Assembly (NCBI GenBank): GCA_021827225.1
Contig: JAKAXG010000241.1
Span: forward strand, 1-6,754
Direction of reading: 5' to 3'
Source of the DNA: Actinomycetes bacterium
GTDB taxonomy: Bacteria > Actinomycetota > Acidimicrobiia > Acidimicrobiales > Palsa-688
Length of the DNA stretch: 6,754 bases
A program made the translations under genes and the position numbers. The notes beneath the pieces were generated by a model. That model made no database searches. It was not told where the DNA came from and saw only the letters and a program-made list of their open reading frames with translations. Shown piece by piece: positions 1 to 6,754 of this stretch; the first letter of the stretch is position 1, and every line of letters begins with the position of its first letter.

Positions 1-224
1 TGTTCTCGTTCGGGGGAGGCCTGTTCATCCCGCTCAGCCAGTTCTCCCCGGCGCTTCGGACCATGGCCTCCTTCACCCCCCTCTACGGTCTCAACCAGAT
101 CGTCCACTACCCGCTGGCGGCCGGGTCGTTCCACTGGGCGTGGGTCGCCAACCTGGTGGCCTGGCTGGTGGTGTTCGTCGTCGGGGCGGCGTGGCGGTTC
201 AGCCGTGACACGGCGCGGGTGTGA
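1..224 (+). CDS. ABC-2-type transporter permease, C-terminal end (partial)
   Basis: This is the last 73 codons of a gene that begins before the window. Reading from base 3 gives a hydrophobic protein end with GGLFIPLSQFSP, then FTPLYGLNQIVHYPL, then a final membrane helix (roughly WVANLVAWLVVFVVGAAW) and a short basic tail ending at TGA 222-224. The pattern of a loop with 'P..Y..' followed by one last transmembrane helix and a short cytosolic tail is typical of the C-terminus of ABC-2 family permeases, the membrane subunit of drug or lipid exporters paired with a separate ATPase. The substrate cannot be told from this piece. The gene is followed by an 80-bp gap and shows no link to the selenium genes downstream. 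No convincing terminator is visible after it. Confidence 0.75.
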   Translation, partial: FSFGGGLFIPLSQFSPALRTMASFTPLYGLNQIVHYPLAAGSFHWAWVANLVAWLVVFVVGAAWRFSRDTARV

Positions 225-304: not shown

Positions 305-1732
305 GTGAAGCCCGTCTCCCCCGACCCTCGGGAAGGATCCCCGCCCTACCGCCCAATGGCCGACATACCTGTAGGTATGGGGCCCGAGGGAGTGGTTCTG
401 GACCCGGTCAGGAGGCGCTGTTACGTGGCGTGCTCGCGGAGCAATTGGCTGGCGGTCATCGACATGGACACCCTGCAGGTCGAGGCCACCGTGGCGGTGG
501 GCACCGAACCCATCGCCGTGGTCCACGACCCGGTGCGGGACCGGATCTTCACGACCGACGCCCGCACCTCGACCCTCTCCGTCGTCGACGGTGCCACCCT
601 GGAGCTGATCGGGCAGGTGGCGGTGGGCGCCTACTGCGCCGGGGCCGGCATCCACGTCGGCCGGCGCAAGGTGCTCACCGGCAACACCGCCGACGGGACC
701 GTCACCATGGTGGACGCCGACTCCCTGGCCGTACTGGCCACCGTCCCGGCCCGCTTCGCCTCCGGCAGCATCGCCGTGGACGAGGCCCGGGACCGGGCCT
801 ACGTCGTCAACTTCGGCGACGACACCGTCACGGTCATCGACACCGACGAGAACCGTTCGCTCACCACCGTCCCGGTGGGGGCCGCCCCGTGCAAGATCGA
901 CCTCGACCCCGACCGCGGCGTCGGCTACGTGGCCAATTCCCTCACCAGCGAGCTGGCCGTGCTCGACCTGGAGGAGCTGGTGGTCACCGACCGCATCCCG
1001 GTGGAGCGGGCACCCGTCGGCCTGGCCGCCTGCGGCGACCGGGTGTACGCGGTCAACCGGGGCGCCGGCAGCGTCAGCATCATCGGCTCGGCGGACCATT
1101 CGGAGTGGGGGCGGATCCCGGTGGGCGACGCCCCCGGGGACGTGGCCGTCGACCGCGATGGCCGCACCCTGTACGTCTCCAACGCCGGGTCCTGCGACGT
1201 GTCCGTGGTGGTGGACCTGCTCGACGATCCGGCTCCCGTGCCGGAGGCCCCGACCGGCGGGCTCTCGGACCTGGTCGGTTCCCGGCTGCCGCCGTGGGAT
1301 CTCTACGACGCCCGCACCGGCGGCCGGATGACCAGCGAGGCCTGGGCCGGCCACAAGTACATCCTCAACTTCTTCGCCAGCTGGTGAGGCCCGTGCAATG
1401 CGGAGGCGCCCGTCATCGAGGAGGTGCGCCGACGTGCCGGCCGGTTCGGTCTGGAAGTGATCATGGTGAATGTCTGGGAGCACGTGGCGGCTCAGCAGGA
1501 GGCGCTCAACTTCTGCGGGATCTACGGGCTGAGCGGCCCGCTGGCTCTCGACGACCACCGCTACATGAAGTCGCTGGGCGTAGCGGGCGTGCCGTTCAAC
1601 GTCCTTGTCGACGAGGCCGGGATGGTCCGCGGGGCGGGGTTCACCACTCCCGAGGAGATCGACGGCGCCCTGCCGCTGCTCGGCCTGCCCCGCCTGCAGG
1701 ACCTGCCGGCGAAGGGGGAGCCGCCTAGCTGA
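305..1732 (+). CDS. Selenoprotein: YVTN beta-propeller fused to TlpA/thioredoxin-like domain (Sec at TGA 1385-1387)
   Basis: Read through the TGA, this encodes 475 residues. Residues about 20-310 hold seven YVTN-type repeats (CYVACSRSNWLAVID, AYVVNFGDDTVTVID and so on, each near an 'IPVG..P..VAVD' strand), so a seven-bladed propeller. Residues about 315-475 are a TlpA/ResA-like thioredoxin fold: YILNFFASW, then the TGA as residue 361, then GPC, giving U361-G-P-C364. The sheet strand VIMVNVW and a cis-proline at GVP (Pro430) follow. In relatives the first position of this motif is cysteine, so TGA as Sec fits exactly. An in-frame TAA at 293 limits the start to GTG 305 or ATG 356; neither has a good ribosome site. 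No signal peptide or membrane segment is visible, unusual for a TlpA-like domain, so a cytosolic place is inferred. It is likely a thiol or selenol oxidoreductase; the substrate is unknown. The 3' end overlaps selD (opposite strand) by 8 bp. Confidence 0.88.
364..379. repeat. Perfect inverted repeat, 7-bp arms, 2-nt spacer
   Basis: CATACCT at 364-370 and AGGTATG at 373-379 are perfect complements separated by GT. The dyad sits in the coding sequence for D-I-P-V-G-M and uses ATA, CCT, GTA and GGT, codons that are rare in this GC-rich gene. The encoded IPVG matches the propeller repeat consensus, so the stretch is translated, yet the AT-rich symmetric DNA suggests an additional role such as an operator near the 5' end. 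Function is unproven. Confidence 0.5.
1385..1416 (+). promoter_or_regulatory. Sec codon and candidate bacterial SECIS hairpin of the propeller-selenothioredoxin
   Basis: After TGA 1385-1387 come 10 nt, then a hairpin: ATGCGG (1398-1403) pairs with CCG (1410-1412) and CAT (1414-1416), leaving T1413 bulged and an apical loop AGGCGC (1404-1409). The E. coli fdhF element has about the same distance from UGA, a bulged U and a loop starting AGG, which SelB reads. Here the bulge lies on the 3' side rather than the 5' side. A competing stem is GGCGC 1405-1409 with GCGCC 1426-1430. The hairpin is inferred by eye, not folded. Confidence 0.55.
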
Positions 1733-2741
1733 CCCGCACGGCGGCCGGCCCGTCCCCGATCTCGCCGACCTCCCACCAGCCGTCGGCGACGAGCGCCGCC
1801 GACGAGGCCGGGTCGACCGCCGCCAGCAGGCCTCCCGAGGTCTGGGGGTCGAGGACCAGTGCCTCCGCTTCGGGTCCCGCGTCGGAGAGCAGGTGCTCCC
1901 CCAGGTAACCCCGGTTGCGGGCCTCGCCGCCGGTCTTCACGCCCTGCGCCGCCAGGTCCGCGGCCCGGGGGTAGAGCGGCAGGCTGGAGGCGTCGATCAC
2001 CGCGGTGACACCCGAGCGTTCGGCCATCTCCCAGCCGTGGCCGGCCAGGCCGAACCCGGTGACGTCGGTGACGGCGTGCACCGGACCCCGCCCGTCGGCG
2101 CCGGGGCGGCCTCCGGCCACCGCCGTCAGGGCGCGGGCCGCCCCGTCGTTGAGGGTGCGCATCCCGGCGATGGCGGCCCGCTTGGCGTCCTCGTCGTCGC
2201 CGGCCAGGACTATCCCGGTGCCGAGCGGCTTGGACAGCACCAGCCGGTCGCCGGGACGGGCCCCCGACTTGCTCCACACCCGCCCCGGGTGGACCACCCC
2301 CTGCACGGCCAGCCCGAAGATCGGTTCCGGCGAGCGGATGGTGTGGCCACCGGCGACCGTGCCGCCGGCCCGGCGCACCGTCTCCGCGGCGGCGGTCAGG
2401 ATCTCACCGATGGTCTCCGGGGGCATCTCCTCCGGGAAGGCGGCGATGTTGAGGGCCAGCACCACCCGCCCGCCCATGGCGAACACGTCGCTGCAGGCGT
2501 TCGTCGCGGCGATGGCCCCGAAGTCGGCCGGGTCGTCCACCAGCGGCGGGAAGAAGTCGGTGGTGGACACCAGGGCGGTGTCGTCGCTCAGCTTGTACAC
2601 GGCGGCGTCGTCGAAGGGGGCCAGGCCCACCAGCAGCGAGCCGTCGGTCCCTGCCGCCAGCTCCCGCACCAGGCGGCCCAGGGGAGCGCCGCCCCACTTG
2701 GCCGCACACCCGCCGCAGGTCGTCCATTCGGTGAGCTTCAC
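1725..2741 (-). CDS. selD: Selenide, water dikinase (selenophosphate synthetase)
   Basis: This 338-residue enzyme makes selenophosphate from selenide and ATP, the selenium donor for Sec synthesis. The N-terminus carries TCGGCAAKWGG, where C12 and K15 match the catalytic Cys17/Lys20 pair of E. coli SelD. The catalytic residue is plain cysteine (TGT codon), not Sec, so the enzyme can be made without the system it feeds. Metal and nucleotide residues are in place: PFDDAAVY (D44/D45), TTDFF (D62), NACSD, GGHTI and VTDVTGFGLAGH (D226). The length is normal for the family. The start is GTG 2741; an in-frame TAG at 2751-2753 rules out any longer form and no strong ribosome site is seen. It is the last gene of the selA-selB-selD run, 30 bp after selB, so probably cotranscribed. 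Its 3' end overlaps the converging selenothioredoxin gene by 8 bp. Confidence 0.95.
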   Translation of the reverse strand: MKLTEWTTCGGCAAKWGGAPLGRLVRELAAGTDGSLLVGLAPFDDAAVYKLSDDTALVSTTDFFPPLVDDPADFGAIAATNACSDVFAMGGRVVLALNIAAFPEEMPPETIGEILTAAAETVRRAGGTVAGGHTIRSPEPIFGLAVQGVVHPGRVWSKSGARPGDRLVLSKPLGTGIVLAGDDEDAKRAAIAGMRTLNDGAARALTAVAGGRPGADGRGPVHAVTDVTGFGLAGHGWEMAERSGVTAVIDASSLPLYPRAADLAAQGVKTGGEARNRGYLGEHLLSDAGPEAEALVLDPQTSGGLLAAVDPASSAALVADGWWEVGEIGDGPAAVRVS

Positions 2742-2771: not shown

Positions 2772-4535
2772 CTATTCCCCGCCTCCCGGGCCTGCAGCCG
2801 GCCCGCCCGGCATGCGGGGCCCGGCGATGCGCAGGTCACCGCGTCTCCGGGTCACCCCCCTGGAGTCGAGGTGGGCCAGCAGCGGCAGGACGTGCTTGCG
2901 GCTGCTGCCGAGGGCGTCGCGGGCGTCGCCTACGGTGAAACCGTCGGGGCGGTCGTCCAGCAGGCCCCGCAGGACCAGCATCGCCGAGTCCACCGCCGCC
3001 GACGCGTACCAGGTGTCGCCGGCCTGGACGGCCAGGCCCGACCGTTCGAGCTCGCGCAGCGCCCCGCGGTCGGACAGGGGCAGGGCGGGCGGGGCCCACT
3101 TGCCGTCCTCCAACTCGCCGAGCACCCGCTGGGCGGCCTGGCTGAGCCCCTGGCCGGCCAGGTCGGCGGCCACCGCCCGGCCGTCGCGGACGGTCACGCC
3201 GGGTAGGCCGGCCTTGAGCAGCGCCCGTTCCCGCTCGTCGAGGACCGCCAGGTCCACTCCCGTGGGGCCGGCCGCGCTGCAGCGCTCGCCGAGCGCCGCC
3301 CGGGTGGCGGCCAGGGCGGCCGGGTCGACCGCCCAGCGGCCGACGGTCGGCTCCACCGGCTCGCCGCTGATGAGCGACAGGTGGCCGGCGTCGACCCACC
3401 CCCGCTCCCTGATCAGCCGCTCCGTGGAGCGCGACGGCACGGCCCGCGCCGCCGGCAGCACCGGCTCGACGTCGAGCACCTCCCCGCCCCCGACCGTCTC
3501 GAAGCGGCCGGCCTCGCGGAGCACGTACCGGTCCCCGGGGACGAGCGGTATGCCGCCCCGGTCCCTGACCCAGAACCGCACCGCCGCCTGCTCCCCGGGC
3601 TCGATCCGCGAGGCGCCGAGCACCCGCATCTTGACCGGGAACTCGCCGCTGCCCACGTACACGGTGTAGGCGCCGCGCCGTTCCACGGTGTGCTCCACCG
3701 AGGCCAGCACGGCCAGGGAGGCGTCGAAGCAGCTGGTCAGGTGCCACTGGTCGGGCTTGACCAGGGCCTGGCCCCGGCCCACCTGGTGGTGGGCCACCCC
3801 GTTCAGGTTGACGGCCAGGCGCCGGCCCGGGGCGGCCCGGGTCAGGGCGGAGTGGTGGCTCTGCAGCGAGCGCACCCGCCCGGCGTGACCCCCCGGCAGT
3901 ACCACTGTCTCTTCGTCGACGGCGATCGAGCCCCCGGTCAGGGTGCCGGTCACGACCGTACCCGAGCCGCGCACGGCGAAGGACCGGTCGACCCACAGCC
4001 GGGGCCGGCCCCGGTCGGCGGCGGCGGGGGTCCGCTGCACCAGCCGGTCGAGGGCGTCGCGCAGGTCGGCCACCCCCCGCCCGGCGGGAACGTCGACCTG
4101 CACCGTCTCCGCCCCGGCCAGGAACGTGCCGGCCAGGTGCTCCTCGAGGTCCAGCGCCACCAGCTCGGCCCAGTCCTCCTCGACCAGACCGACCTTGGTC
4201 AGGGCCACCACCCCGTGGGAGATGCCCATCAGCTCCAGGATCCGCAGGTGCTCCTCGGACTGCTCCTTCCACCCCTCGGTGGCCGCCACCACGAACAGGC
4301 AGGCGTCCACCGAGCCGACGCCGGCCAGCATGTTGCGCACGAACCGGCCGTGCCCGGGGACGTCCACGAAGGCCACCTCCCGCCCGGAGGGGAGGGTCGT
4401 CGCCGCGAAACCCAGGTCGATGGTGAGCCCCCGGGCCTTCTCCTCGGGCCAGCGGTCCGGGTCCACGCCGGTCAGCGCCCACACCAGGGTGGACTTGCCG
4501 TGGTCCACGTGCCCGGCGGTCGCCACCACCCTCAC
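2772..4535 (-). CDS. selB: Selenocysteine-specific elongation factor SelB
   Basis: This 587-residue GTPase carries Sec-tRNA-Sec to the ribosome at UGA codons marked by a SECIS hairpin. The N-terminal EF-Tu-like domain shows G1 GHVDHGKS (residues 8-15), switch I RGLTIDLGFA (36-44) and G3 DVPGH (58-62). Domain 2 begins near RSFAVRGSGTVVTGTLTGG (from 184). The C-terminal part, about 370-587, has the length and helical, charged character of the SelB winged-helix repeats that bind SECIS RNA, ending in a basic region and a Gly/Pro-rich tail. The G4 motif is TKVG (113-116) where E. coli SelB has TKAD, and the G5 region reads VDVPAG instead of an S-A motif. GTG 4535 is chosen because the protein then starts right before the G1 strand and GTGA overlaps the selA stop by 4 bp, a sign of translational coupling. 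The open frame upstream to 4811 is selA shadow. Confidence 0.95.
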   Translation of the reverse strand: MRVVATAGHVDHGKSTLVWALTGVDPDRWPEEKARGLTIDLGFAATTLPSGREVAFVDVPGHGRFVRNMLAGVGSVDACLFVVAATEGWKEQSEEHLRILELMGISHGVVALTKVGLVEEDWAELVALDLEEHLAGTFLAGAETVQVDVPAGRGVADLRDALDRLVQRTPAAADRGRPRLWVDRSFAVRGSGTVVTGTLTGGSIAVDEETVVLPGGHAGRVRSLQSHHSALTRAAPGRRLAVNLNGVAHHQVGRGQALVKPDQWHLTSCFDASLAVLASVEHTVERRGAYTVYVGSGEFPVKMRVLGASRIEPGEQAAVRFWVRDRGGIPLVPGDRYVLREAGRFETVGGGEVLDVEPVLPAARAVPSRSTERLIRERGWVDAGHLSLISGEPVEPTVGRWAVDPAALAATRAALGERCSAAGPTGVDLAVLDERERALLKAGLPGVTVRDGRAVAADLAGQGLSQAAQRVLGELEDGKWAPPALPLSDRGALRELERSGLAVQAGDTWYASAAVDSAMLVLRGLLDDRPDGFTVGDARDALGSSRKHVLPLLAHLDSRGVTRRRGDLRIAGPRMPGGPAAGPGGGE

Positions 4536-5815
4536 GCGGTGAGCGCCTTGGCCAGGGCCGGGTCCTGCTCCTCCGACACGGTGCGCAGATCGCAGATGGT
4601 GCGGCCGTCCTTCACGTGGGCGATCACCGGCGGCGACGCCCGGCGCAGCCGGGAGGTGACGTCGCCGTCGAAGGCCACCCCGGCGGAGGGGATGGTGACC
4701 GACGGCAGGGTCCCCCCGCCCATCACCGACGAGCAGTCCACCACCCGGCCGGCGCCGAGGGCCTCCGCCCGGCGGCGCAGGGCGGCCACCGGGGCGGTGG
4801 CCATCCGCCACAGCGGCAGCGTCCGGCCGGCGTCACGGCGCAGGTAGGCCAGGGCCACCTCCTGGAGGGACTCGAGGACCAGGCCGCCGGGGCGCAGCGC
4901 CCGGGCCAGCGGGTGCCTCCGGCACCGCTCCACCAGGTCCCGCCGGCCGGCGATCACCCCGGCCTGGGGTCCACCGAGCAGCTTGTCGCCGCTGAAGGTC
5001 ACCAGCGCGGCGCCCGCCGCCAGGGTCTGGCGGGCCGCCGGCTCGCCGACCAGCCAGCTGGGAGGGCCGCCGGGCAGCCACGGGCACCCGGCGTCGAGCA
5101 GCCCCGACCCGAGATCGACGACCACCGGCGGCCCCAGGCCGGCCAGCGGGCCCACACCGACCGACTCGGTGAAGCCGGTGATGGCGTAGTTGGAGGTGTG
5201 GACCTTGAGCACCACGGCGGTGTCGGGGCCGGCCGCCGCCTGGTAGTCGGCCAGGCGGGTCCGGTTGGTGGTGCCCACCTCCACCAGCCTGGCCCCGGAC
5301 TGGACCAGCACGTCGGGGACCCGGAACCCCCCTCCGATCTCCACCAGCTCGCCCCGGCTGACCAGCACCTCCCGGCCGGGGGCCAGCACCGAGAGGGCGA
5401 GGAGGATGGCGGCCGCCCCGTTGTTGACCACCAGGGCGGCCTCGGCGCCGCACGCCCGGGCCATGAGCGAGGCGGCGTGGGCGGAGCGGTCCCCCCGCCG
5501 GCCGGTGAGGATGTCGAGCTCCAGGTTGGTGTAGCCCCCCGGGCGGTCCACCGCCAGGGGGGCCCGGCCCAGGTTGGTGTGGAGCAGCACGCCGGTGGCG
5601 TTGATCACCGGCTGCAGCAGGCCCCGGCTGAACCGGGCGGCGGCGTCGGCGGCGGCGGCCAGGATCCGCTCGGGATCCGGCGGCTGCGCTTCCGGGGCCG
5701 CCCCCACCTCGGCGGAGATGGCCCGGCGGGCCAGCTCGACGAGGACGGGATGGGGGAGCCCGGTGCCGGCCAGCTGTCTGGCCACGTAGTCCACGGAGGG
5801 AGCCCGGCTGGTCAC
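4532..5815 (-). CDS. selA: L-seryl-tRNA(Sec) selenium transferase SelA
   Basis: This is a PLP enzyme of the fold-type I class that converts Ser-tRNA-Sec to Sec-tRNA-Sec using selenophosphate. Clear family motifs are VINATGVLLHTNLGRAPL, VVNNGAAAILLAL, SRGELVEIGGGFRVP, VEVGTTNRT, KVHTSNY and VVDLGSG. The PLP lysine is in FSGDKLLGGPQAG (Lys278 from this start; Lys295 in E. coli). From GTG 5815 it is 427 residues, against 463 in E. coli. ATG 5857 would add 14 residues of LRRSAAGLGTFGP type that do not look like family sequence. That longer form would start 8 bp from the 5' end of tRNA-Sec, leaving no room for promoters. GTG 5815 lies about 7 nt after a TACTTT box, so a leaderless mRNA is possible. 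It is the first gene of the selA-selB-selD run and diverges from selC. Confidence 0.94.
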   Translation of the reverse strand: MTSRAPSVDYVARQLAGTGLPHPVLVELARRAISAEVGAAPEAQPPDPERILAAAADAAARFSRGLLQPVINATGVLLHTNLGRAPLAVDRPGGYTNLELDILTGRRGDRSAHAASLMARACGAEAALVVNNGAAAILLALSVLAPGREVLVSRGELVEIGGGFRVPDVLVQSGARLVEVGTTNRTRLADYQAAAGPDTAVVLKVHTSNYAITGFTESVGVGPLAGLGPPVVVDLGSGLLDAGCPWLPGGPPSWLVGEPAARQTLAAGAALVTFSGDKLLGGPQAGVIAGRRDLVERCRRHPLARALRPGGLVLESLQEVALAYLRRDAGRTLPLWRMATAPVAALRRRAEALGAGRVVDCSSVMGGGTLPSVTIPSAGVAFDGDVTSRLRRASPPVIAHVKDGRTICDLRTVSEEQDPALAKALTA

Positions 5816-5822
5816 CGGACCA

Positions 5823-5828
5823 AAAGTA
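5823..5828 (-). promoter_or_regulatory. Possible -10 box of selA (leaderless)
   Basis: On the minus strand TACTTT fits the actinobacterial TAnnnT -10 pattern and lies 7 nt before GTG 5815, so transcription could start at the start codon itself. No ribosome site precedes GTG 5815, which agrees with a leaderless mRNA. No recognisable -35 box is present. Confidence 0.35.
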
Positions 5829-5851
5829 CCCAGCCCAGCGGCCGAGCGGCG

Positions 5852-5857
5852 TAGCAT
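5852..5857 (+). promoter_or_regulatory. Possible -10 box of selC
   Basis: TAGCAT fits TAnnnT and ends 7 nt before the first base of tRNA-Sec at 5865, the right spacing for transcription to begin at or just before the mature 5' end. No clear -35 hexamer is seen about 17 nt upstream. Confidence 0.35.
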
Positions 5858-5864
5858 CTCGGGC

Positions 5865-5957
5865 GGAGGTGTCCGGGCACCTGGTGGGCTCCACCGCCTT
5901 CAAAGCGGCTGGCTGCGGCGATCCCGCAGCGGCGGGTTCGATTCCCGTCCACCTCCG
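5865..5957 (+). tRNA. selC: tRNA-Sec, anticodon TCA
   Basis: This is the tRNA that inserts selenocysteine at UGA. The acceptor is GGAGGTG 5865-5871 with CACCTCC 5950-5956, followed by discriminator G5957. The anticodon loop CTTCAAA (5898-5904) holds TCA at 5900-5902 on a 4-bp stem CCGC/GCGG. A long variable arm is typical of tRNA-Sec: GCTGCGG 5912-5918 pairs perfectly with CCGCAGC 5924-5930 across loop CGATC. The T arm is GGCGGG 5931-5936 with CCCGTC 5944-5949 and loop TTCGATT. Acceptor plus T stem add to 13 bp, as in bacterial tRNA-Sec, although the 8+5 split is blurred: base 5872 does not pair with 5949, while 5931 does. CCA is not encoded. A3893-type pairing above the anticodon stem is imperfect (A5893 opposite C5909). 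It lies between divergent selA and fdhA. Confidence 0.95.
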
Positions 5958-6066: not shown

Positions 6067-6071
6067 GGAGG
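6067..6071 (+). promoter_or_regulatory. Ribosome binding site that fixes the fdhA start
   Basis: GGAGG, 8 nt before GTG 6080, is the only strong Shine-Dalgarno site found in front of a gene in this window. It overlaps the in-frame GTG at 6071, which therefore is not the start. The wider CGGAGGTGG (6066-6074) is also perfectly complementary to the 3' acceptor strand of tRNA-Sec (5949-5957). Confidence 0.7.
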
Positions 6072-6079
6072 TGGGCGCA

Positions 6080-6754
6080 GTGAAACTGGGCGATTGGCCG
6101 GTCATACGCCAGGTCACCGGCGCCGACCGCAGCGGACGGGGTGCCGCGGTGGCGTCGCCCCGCACCAAGAAGCTGATCGCCCGGCTGGCGGAGGCCGACA
6201 AGGTCGTGAAGTCGGTCTGCCCCTACTGCGCCGTGGGCTGCGGCCAGAACGTCTACGTCAAGGACGAGAAGGTCATCCAGATCGAGGGCGACCCGGACTC
6301 CCCGGTCAGCCGGGGCCGGCTGTGCCCCAAGGGTTCGGCCAGCCTGCAGCTCACCACCGGATCGGCCCGCCGCTACGACGTCCTGTACCGGCCGCCGCAC
6401 GCCACGGAGTGGCAGACCCTCGACCTGGACACGGCCATGGACATGGTCGCCGACCGGGTCATCGAGACCCGCCGGCGGACCTGGCAGTGGGAGGACGGCG
6501 GGAAGCGGGTGCGGCGCACCATGGGTATCGCCAGCCTGGGCGGCGCCACCCTGGACAACGAAGAGAACTATCTGATGAAGAAGCTCTACACCGCCCTGGG
6601 AGCGGTGCAGATCGAGAACCAGGCCCGCATATGACACTCCTCCACCGTCCCCAGTTTGGGGACATCGTTCGGTAGGGGAGGCGCCACCTCCTTCCAGCAG
6701 GACCTGCAGAACGCGGACTGCATCGTGATCCAGGGCTCCAACATGGCCGAGGCC
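6080..6754 (+). CDS. fdhA: Formate dehydrogenase alpha subunit, selenoprotein, 5' part (Sec at TGA 6632-6634)
   Basis: This is the N-terminal 225 codons of a molybdopterin enzyme that oxidises formate to CO2; the gene runs off the window. The [4Fe-4S] site is CPYCAVGC, then 27 residues, then CPKG: Cys47, Cys50, Cys54 and Cys82, with the lysine after it that relays electrons to the pterin in this family. The segment ENQARI, TGA, HSSTVPSLG matches the family active site, where Sec (or Cys) ligates Mo/W and is followed by the conserved His. TGA is residue 185, near Sec196 of E. coli FdnG. After it GTSFGRGGATSFQQDLQNADCIVIQGSNMAEA continues in frame. No twin-arginine signal is seen at the N-terminus, unlike FdnG, so a cytosolic enzyme is inferred. 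Its electron partner is outside the window. It follows selC on the same strand. Confidence 0.92.
6632..6680 (+). promoter_or_regulatory. Sec codon and SECIS hairpin of fdhA
   Basis: Twelve nt after TGA 6632-6634, GTCCCC (6647-6652) pairs perfectly with GGGGAC (6658-6663) around loop AGTTT, with G as second loop base as SelB targets usually have. A lower stem of 6637-6646 with 6671-6680 is possible (nine pairs, one C-A mismatch), leaving 6664-6670 unpaired on the 3' side. Distance and place match known fdh SECIS elements. Confidence 0.75.

Follow-up and report, generated by a model that had tools for sequence, protein, structure and literature searches.

Introduction

The thioredoxin-like proteins ResA, TlpA, and DsbE are exported or membrane-anchored. 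We analysed a stretch of 6,754 nucleotides of DNA (the window, at its full length) from an actinomycete of the order Acidimicrobiales, which contains a gene whose predicted product resembles these proteins in its thioredoxin fold, in a W-C/U-x-x-C motif, and in a proline at the cis-Pro position, with ResA providing the best solved relatives. However, whereas ResA, TlpA, and DsbE use Cys, the window protein would use selenocysteine (Sec), has its redoxin domain fused behind a β-propeller, and looks cytosolic by sequence. YncE and archaeal surface-layer YVTN propellers are also similar, their matches being limited to the propeller of the window protein's model. NHLRC2 also combines a Trx domain with a β-propeller: its TlpA-like Trx domain and its propeller form a cleft that contains the active-site motif CCINC, and the Trx-like domain shows no classical insulin-reduction activity (PMC6107167, in part). 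As far as that part of the source goes, NHLRC2 has the Trx domain first, six NHL blades, CCINC, and no Sec, whereas the window protein has the propeller first, seven blades, and U-G-P-C. Because domain order, blade number, and motif all differ, we regard NHLRC2 as a likeness and not as a member of the same family.

Prokaryotic selenoproteins were grouped in a 2026 review into 119 families or subfamilies (PMC13188914, in part). Table 1 of that review has an entry named "Redoxin family protein" (PF08534, UxxC, HEU0032618.1), for which GOS 2008 and Peng 2016 are cited. Compared by the table entry alone, PF08534 and UxxC are common to this entry and to the window protein, and no propeller is mentioned; the entry could overlap with the C-terminal half of the family described here. 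The GOS group for pfam08534, "Prx-like 3", comprises 68 Sec and 2,608 Cys sequences and is more abundant in marine samples (PMC2398784, in part), and we infer from the parts of these two sources at hand that it corresponds to the "Redoxin family protein" entry. NCBIfam release 20 has no fitting model. Its nearest selenoprotein model, NF041054 (WAxxUGC_long), is by its name a ResA-like Sec protein; it reaches 44.1 bits over the same domain against a cut-off of 300, its match covers the redoxin part only, and its motif is U-G-C versus U-G-P-C in the window protein.

No propeller-named entry occurs in the available part of the prokaryotic selenoprotein tables (PMC13188914), and neither the main text of this review nor that of a 2022 review (PMC9312934) uses the terms propeller, YVTN, or YncE. 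Literature searches for a selenoprotein with propeller and thioredoxin in actinobacteria, and for YVTN with thioredoxin and selenocysteine, found none among the papers searched. An earlier annotation of the window by a model that saw only its letters and open reading frames (the sequence-only reading) had proposed that a propeller-redoxin fusion is not a described selenoprotein family. This agrees with what we found, i.e. no name in the published tables, in the part available, and no model in NCBIfam release 20, with the proviso that the HEU0032618.1 entry could overlap.

An in-frame UGA at the active-site position of a redoxin domain

The gene and its parts are as follows.

305..1732, + strand: read-through gene, predicted to encode a 475-residue propeller-redoxin selenoprotein; GTG start, final stop TGA at 1730-1732
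347..1216, + strand: seven-bladed YVTN β-propeller, residues 15-304 (28 strands in the model)
1274..1630, + strand: redoxin or ResA/TlpA-like thioredoxin domain, residues 324-442, with the UGA inside (PF08534, 50.8 bits versus a cut-off of 26.6; ResA 4nmu, E 1.1e-11)
1385..1387, + strand: UGA codon, residue 361 (W-U-G-P-C), very probably read as Sec; cut point in N- and C-terminal relatives
1394..1396, + strand: Cys364, the predicted resolving Cys, in the translated frame
1592..1594, + strand: Pro430, at the cis-proline position; G-V-P invariant in the window protein and in 18/18 C-terminal pieces

In the frame that starts with GTG 305, the TGA at 1385 is residue 361 and occupies the first active-site position of W-x-G-P-C, as the sequence-only reading had it. 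A CTG at 296 is a possible alternative start, with a TAA in frame at 293. Past the TGA, the frame stays open for 114 codons, one fewer than the 115 given previously, up to the second TGA, and it contains the thioredoxin landmarks that had been reported there, C364 and P430. Third-position G+C in the same frame is 0.933 before the TGA and 0.895 after it, indicating that coding bias continues past this codon. The five other frames of the post-TGA stretch comprise three with several stops, one reverse frame with none, and one forward frame with a single stop near its end. Because the sequence is so G+C-rich, a 114-codon open frame is weak evidence when taken alone, and it is homology that raises read-through above chance, since relatives either end at W360 (32/32) or start after the UGA (18/18), as detailed below.

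Pfam finds, behind the propeller, a single redoxin domain (PF08534) that spans the TGA, with PF00578 at 37.6 bits over a cut-off of 26. The second half alone scores 23.1 bits with PF08534, under the cut-off of 26.6. The UGA residue aligns with the first Cys of W-C-x-x-C in ResA structures (4nmu, E 1.1e-11; 1st9, E 1.8e-10), i.e. a Cys at the Sec position is present at the level of the domain. Curated NCBIfam cut-offs were missed for ResA (NF002854, 48.9 of 170 bits), dsbE (39.3 of 123.15), and TlpA (35.7 of 230). The redoxin fold of the C-terminal half is predicted from sequence, with no confident structure model: this part is poor in the model built from alignment A4 (described below), domain packing is likewise without a confident model, and the fold-search lists are filled by propeller matches and are uninformative on this half.

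As for the propeller, the YVTN repeat model TIGR02276 (NCBIfam) scores 135.6 bits against a cut-off of 27.85. The seven-bladed model comes from an alignment (A3) of joined N-half and C-half relatives, in which the N-half ends are misaligned, and was used for the propeller only; a second model, from A4, agrees with it on the propeller. None of the enzyme-level NCBIfam propeller cut-offs was reached, the YncE equivalog NF052280 scoring 84.7 versus 400.

Sec machinery adjoining the propeller gene

The following genes occupy the remainder of the window downstream.

1725..2741, - strand: selD, selenophosphate synthetase, convergent with the propeller gene (TIGR00476, 334.1 bits versus 125)
2772..4535, - strand: selB, Sec-specific elongation factor, start approximate (TIGR00475, 280.9 bits versus 242.25; PF09107 winged helix)
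4532..5857, - strand: selA, L-seryl-tRNA(Sec) selenium transferase (TIGR00474, 404.6 bits versus 267.9)
5865..5957, + strand: tRNA-Sec, anticodon UCA (62.8 bits versus a gathering score of 47)
6071..6754, + strand: start of a molybdopterin oxidoreductase gene (FdhA-like), with an in-frame TGA at 6632-6634 (PF04879, E 1.5e-20)

A full set of Sec genes beside the propeller gene had been noted previously and is borne out by these scores, selD, selB, and selA all being above their NCBIfam cut-offs and tRNA-Sec (UCA) above its gathering score. selD and the propeller gene are convergent and share 8 bases at their 3' ends. The selD product is presumably the Cys form at a position that can be Sec. The FdhA-like gene adds another selenoprotein gene to the window, one of the type most often found in bacteria. 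Ahead of the propeller gene, positions 3-224 (+ strand) are the last part of an open frame resembling, by eye, a membrane permease.

Relatives divided at the position of the UGA

A protein search with the read-through product returned 139 matches among 7992 scored candidates, of which 120 were listed. The best 32 of the 139 (P0002-P0033), which are 38-99% identical to the query, all end in F-A-S-W, at W360. This ending was found in 0/88 of the other matches listed (best 120 of 139). P0002 is 99% identical and may come from the same organism; without it, 31 diverged clusters are left. Alignment A4 consists of the window protein and P0002-P0032 (32 sequences), with pairwise identities of 37-99% (median 52%), and in it Y352 and F357-A-S-W360 are invariant (32/32). 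P0033 was left out as garbled; its propeller end is disrupted as by a frameshift, with the F-A-S-W end still there.

A second search used as query only the 114 residues that follow the UGA; of 31 candidates, 18 matched at E up to 1e-5. These C-terminal pieces are 82-115 residues long and 48-100% identical, one of them, P0122, coming from the window itself. Each of the 18 starts downstream of the UGA, with several different internal start positions among them, W-C-x-x-C occurs in none, and N389-V-W-E392 and G428-V-P430 are invariant among them (18/18). P0135-P0139 form a second C-terminal subgroup, with N-V-W-E-S or N-V-W-E-G versus N-V-W-E-H and 44-54% identity to the window domain (A1); one of these is named Mycobacteriales. 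The named sources of relatives are Streptomyces for P0008 and P0010 (N-terminal) and a Mycobacteriales MAG for P0137 (C-terminal). Pairs of an N-half and a C-half on one contig were sought by eye among the records listed, and none was found.

The sequence-only reading expected TGA-containing homologues, and numerous relatives are indeed compatible with a stop at this codon, with the qualification that they are known from proteins alone, so the stop at the cut could be UGA, UAG, or UAA. It had also named a true stop in homologues as evidence against Sec. The gene models do end at W360, but the second half is conserved and is found in pieces of its own, as would be expected of a mis-annotated UGA.

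Almost all selenoproteins are said to have Cys homologues (PMC12013277, in part), and such homologues had been expected for this protein as well. We compared residues 328-472 with 1062 candidates, i.e. proteins of ∼0.55-1.75x full length with any residue allowed at 361. Two matches were obtained at E up to 1e-6, P0002 itself and P0140, and neither is a full-length Cys version, P0140 being an unrelated tandem thioredoxin without a propeller. The expectation of full-length Cys homologues was therefore disappointed among these 1062 candidates, with the caveat that a distant Cys relative could be missed because protein searches need shared five-residue words. Since this full-length search returned no Cys version, the family looks Sec-only as far as the database searched shows.

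A scan of genome contigs with a single sequence gave a generic propeller only (L001), without a redoxin, and three scans of viral contigs gave no relative. In the plasmid collection, tblastn with the whole protein matched 261 records, none of these matches extending over 80% of the query; the 20 matches listed cover the propeller part only. The redoxin part matched 47 plasmid records, in one case extending over 80% of the query, while the 12 matches listed (29-39% identical) lie within TlpA-type or thiol:disulfide interchange genes. Of 201 Chloroflexota genomes, two contained matches at E up to 1e-30; the three matches cover the propeller (query 18-316), and none reaches the redoxin. When the redoxin part was compared with 400 Chloroflexota genomes (a draw overlapping the 201), 14 of them yielded a total of 17 matches; these are 32-38% identical, clearly lower than the 48-84% seen for the family's other C-terminal relatives. 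One of these Chloroflexota matches, L012, is on reading an ordinary Cys TlpA.

Because 32/32 relatives end at the Trp, 18/18 start after it, and no full-length Cys versions were found, the window protein most likely belongs to a selenoprotein family with systematically split gene models, whose named members come from Streptomyces and a Mycobacteriales MAG. We consider it very probable that the gene encodes a cytosolic selenoprotein composed of a seven-bladed YVTN propeller and a ResA/TlpA-like redoxin, with a catalytic Sec inserted at UGA 1385 by the neighbouring SelA, SelB, SelD, and tRNA-Sec. A propeller-redoxin selenoprotein, which the sequence-only reading had put forward, is the best reading in view of the relatives cut at the same codon, the machinery, and the redoxin landmarks. 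In such a protein, Sec361 would be the nucleophile acting on a disulfide, sulfenic acid, or peroxide, Cys364 would resolve the resulting selenylsulfide, and a cellular thiol reductant would recycle Sec361/Cys364. The propeller may hold a substrate or partner beside the active site, by analogy with the cleft of NHLRC2.

Predicted localization and possible roles of the probable selenoprotein

Within the first 80 residues, the most hydrophobic 19-residue stretch has a hydropathy of 1.04 in the window protein, 0.37-1.22 in 29/30 relatives, and 1.62 in one relative. Three exported-looking control propellers gave 1.53, 1.65, and 2.34 by the same rough test, and the relative at 1.62 falls inside this range. 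In line with the reported lack of a signal peptide, the window protein has no signal-like hydrophobic start, and 29/30 relatives agree, with one borderline in hydropathy. On this evidence, the family leans to the absence of an export signal or membrane anchor. The window protein has a later start than most of its relatives.

Several cysteines are conserved in the propeller half. Among the relatives P0003-P0032, C196 is present in 30/30, C43 in 29/30, and C167 in 28/30, and an N-terminal Cys is present in 29/29 of those that align there. These residues would suit a propeller that is itself catalytic (lactonase-, YncE-, or metal-site-like) and whose Cys or metal site is kept reduced by the Sec redoxin, which is a sub-case of the preferred explanation. 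The window protein, however, has C43 and C196 but neither C167 nor the N-terminal Cys, and the enzyme-level NCBIfam propeller cut-offs were missed, leaving us to view a catalytic propeller as rather unlikely. That the propeller cysteines work together with Sec361 is only a conjecture. P0007 carries just one of C167 and the N-terminal Cys, and the possibility that these two covary was set aside on this ground.

A second sub-case of the selenoprotein explanation is that the protein serves selenium handling, i.e. that it reduces or delivers selenium for SelD, instead of general thiol redox. Such a role would explain both its place beside selD, with which it is convergent in the sel cluster, and the want of Cys versions, none of which was found. 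The FdhA gene, however, lies at the same cluster without having such a role, and no test in our analysis points to selenium binding, so that we judge selenium handling to be improbable.

A candidate SECIS hairpin and readings without Sec

One hairpin follows the UGA of the propeller gene.

1406..1427, + strand: weak candidate bacterial SECIS hairpin, with 5 bp and a 12-nt loop in which G is the second base

When a simple SECIS rule is applied to 2021 codons from genes of the window, 61% are as good as this one, and the stability of the hairpin is unexceptional (z -0.21 over 50 nt, -1.68 over 37 nt). The hairpin after TGA 6632 in the FdhA-like gene is stable (z -2.50 over 50 nt, -3.05 over 23 nt), and by the same rule 15% of codons are as good. 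The candidate in the propeller gene is thus no better than background and lends no SECIS support to this gene. This poor hairpin is the weakest part of the selenoprotein case, and it could mean that the SECIS is atypical.

If the UGA were instead a real stop, the product would be a truncated propeller, with the downstream piece left untranslated or made as a protein of its own by re-initiation. This would be in line with the storage of the relatives as separate pieces in databases, with the lack of a convincing SECIS in the window copy, and with the existence of internal starts (GTG 1424). However, the cut would then lie inside a thioredoxin fold, just before the catalytic residue, although Y352 and F357-W360 are invariant in 32/32 sequences and the half after the UGA is conserved too. 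In addition, internal start positions vary between relatives, and Sec machinery adjoins the gene. We therefore hold a real stop to be very improbable. That the gene is a decayed pseudogene, or the TGA a sequencing error standing for TGC or TGG, is scarcely credible, for although a single base change would restore the usual W-C-G-P-C, 31 diverged relatives, plus the 99% identical P0002, are cut at the same residue, and codon bias continues past the TGA.

Discussion

We favor the selenoprotein reading, in which gene models named "YVTN β-propeller" and orphan thioredoxin-piece gene models are explained as halves of one protein. Judged against the available part of the published tables, the family is most likely a variant among known UxxC thioredoxin-fold selenoproteins, with an architecture that is absent from these tables and with members named Streptomyces. 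Thioredoxin-fold selenoproteins as such are common, and the value of this one to the specialist lies in its Sec-only pattern and in its many split gene models. Since no full-length Cys version was found, screens based on Cys/Sec pairs may miss such a family, and the authors of deep-Sep state the same blind spot for their own method (PMC12013277, in part).

More tentatively, the protein might represent an obligate-selenium family, cytosolic, present in Streptomyces and probably widespread in Actinomycetota, occurring in the Sec form only, and having a relay or metal site formed by C43/C196 (mostly with C167 and the N-terminal Cys) that is served by Sec361. We see this as possible, with the odds against it. 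If true, loss of Sec decoding would mean loss of the protein, and the family would constitute a second reason, beside formate dehydrogenase, for keeping the Sec system. It would thereby offer a testable proposal on why some actinomycetes retain Sec decoding.
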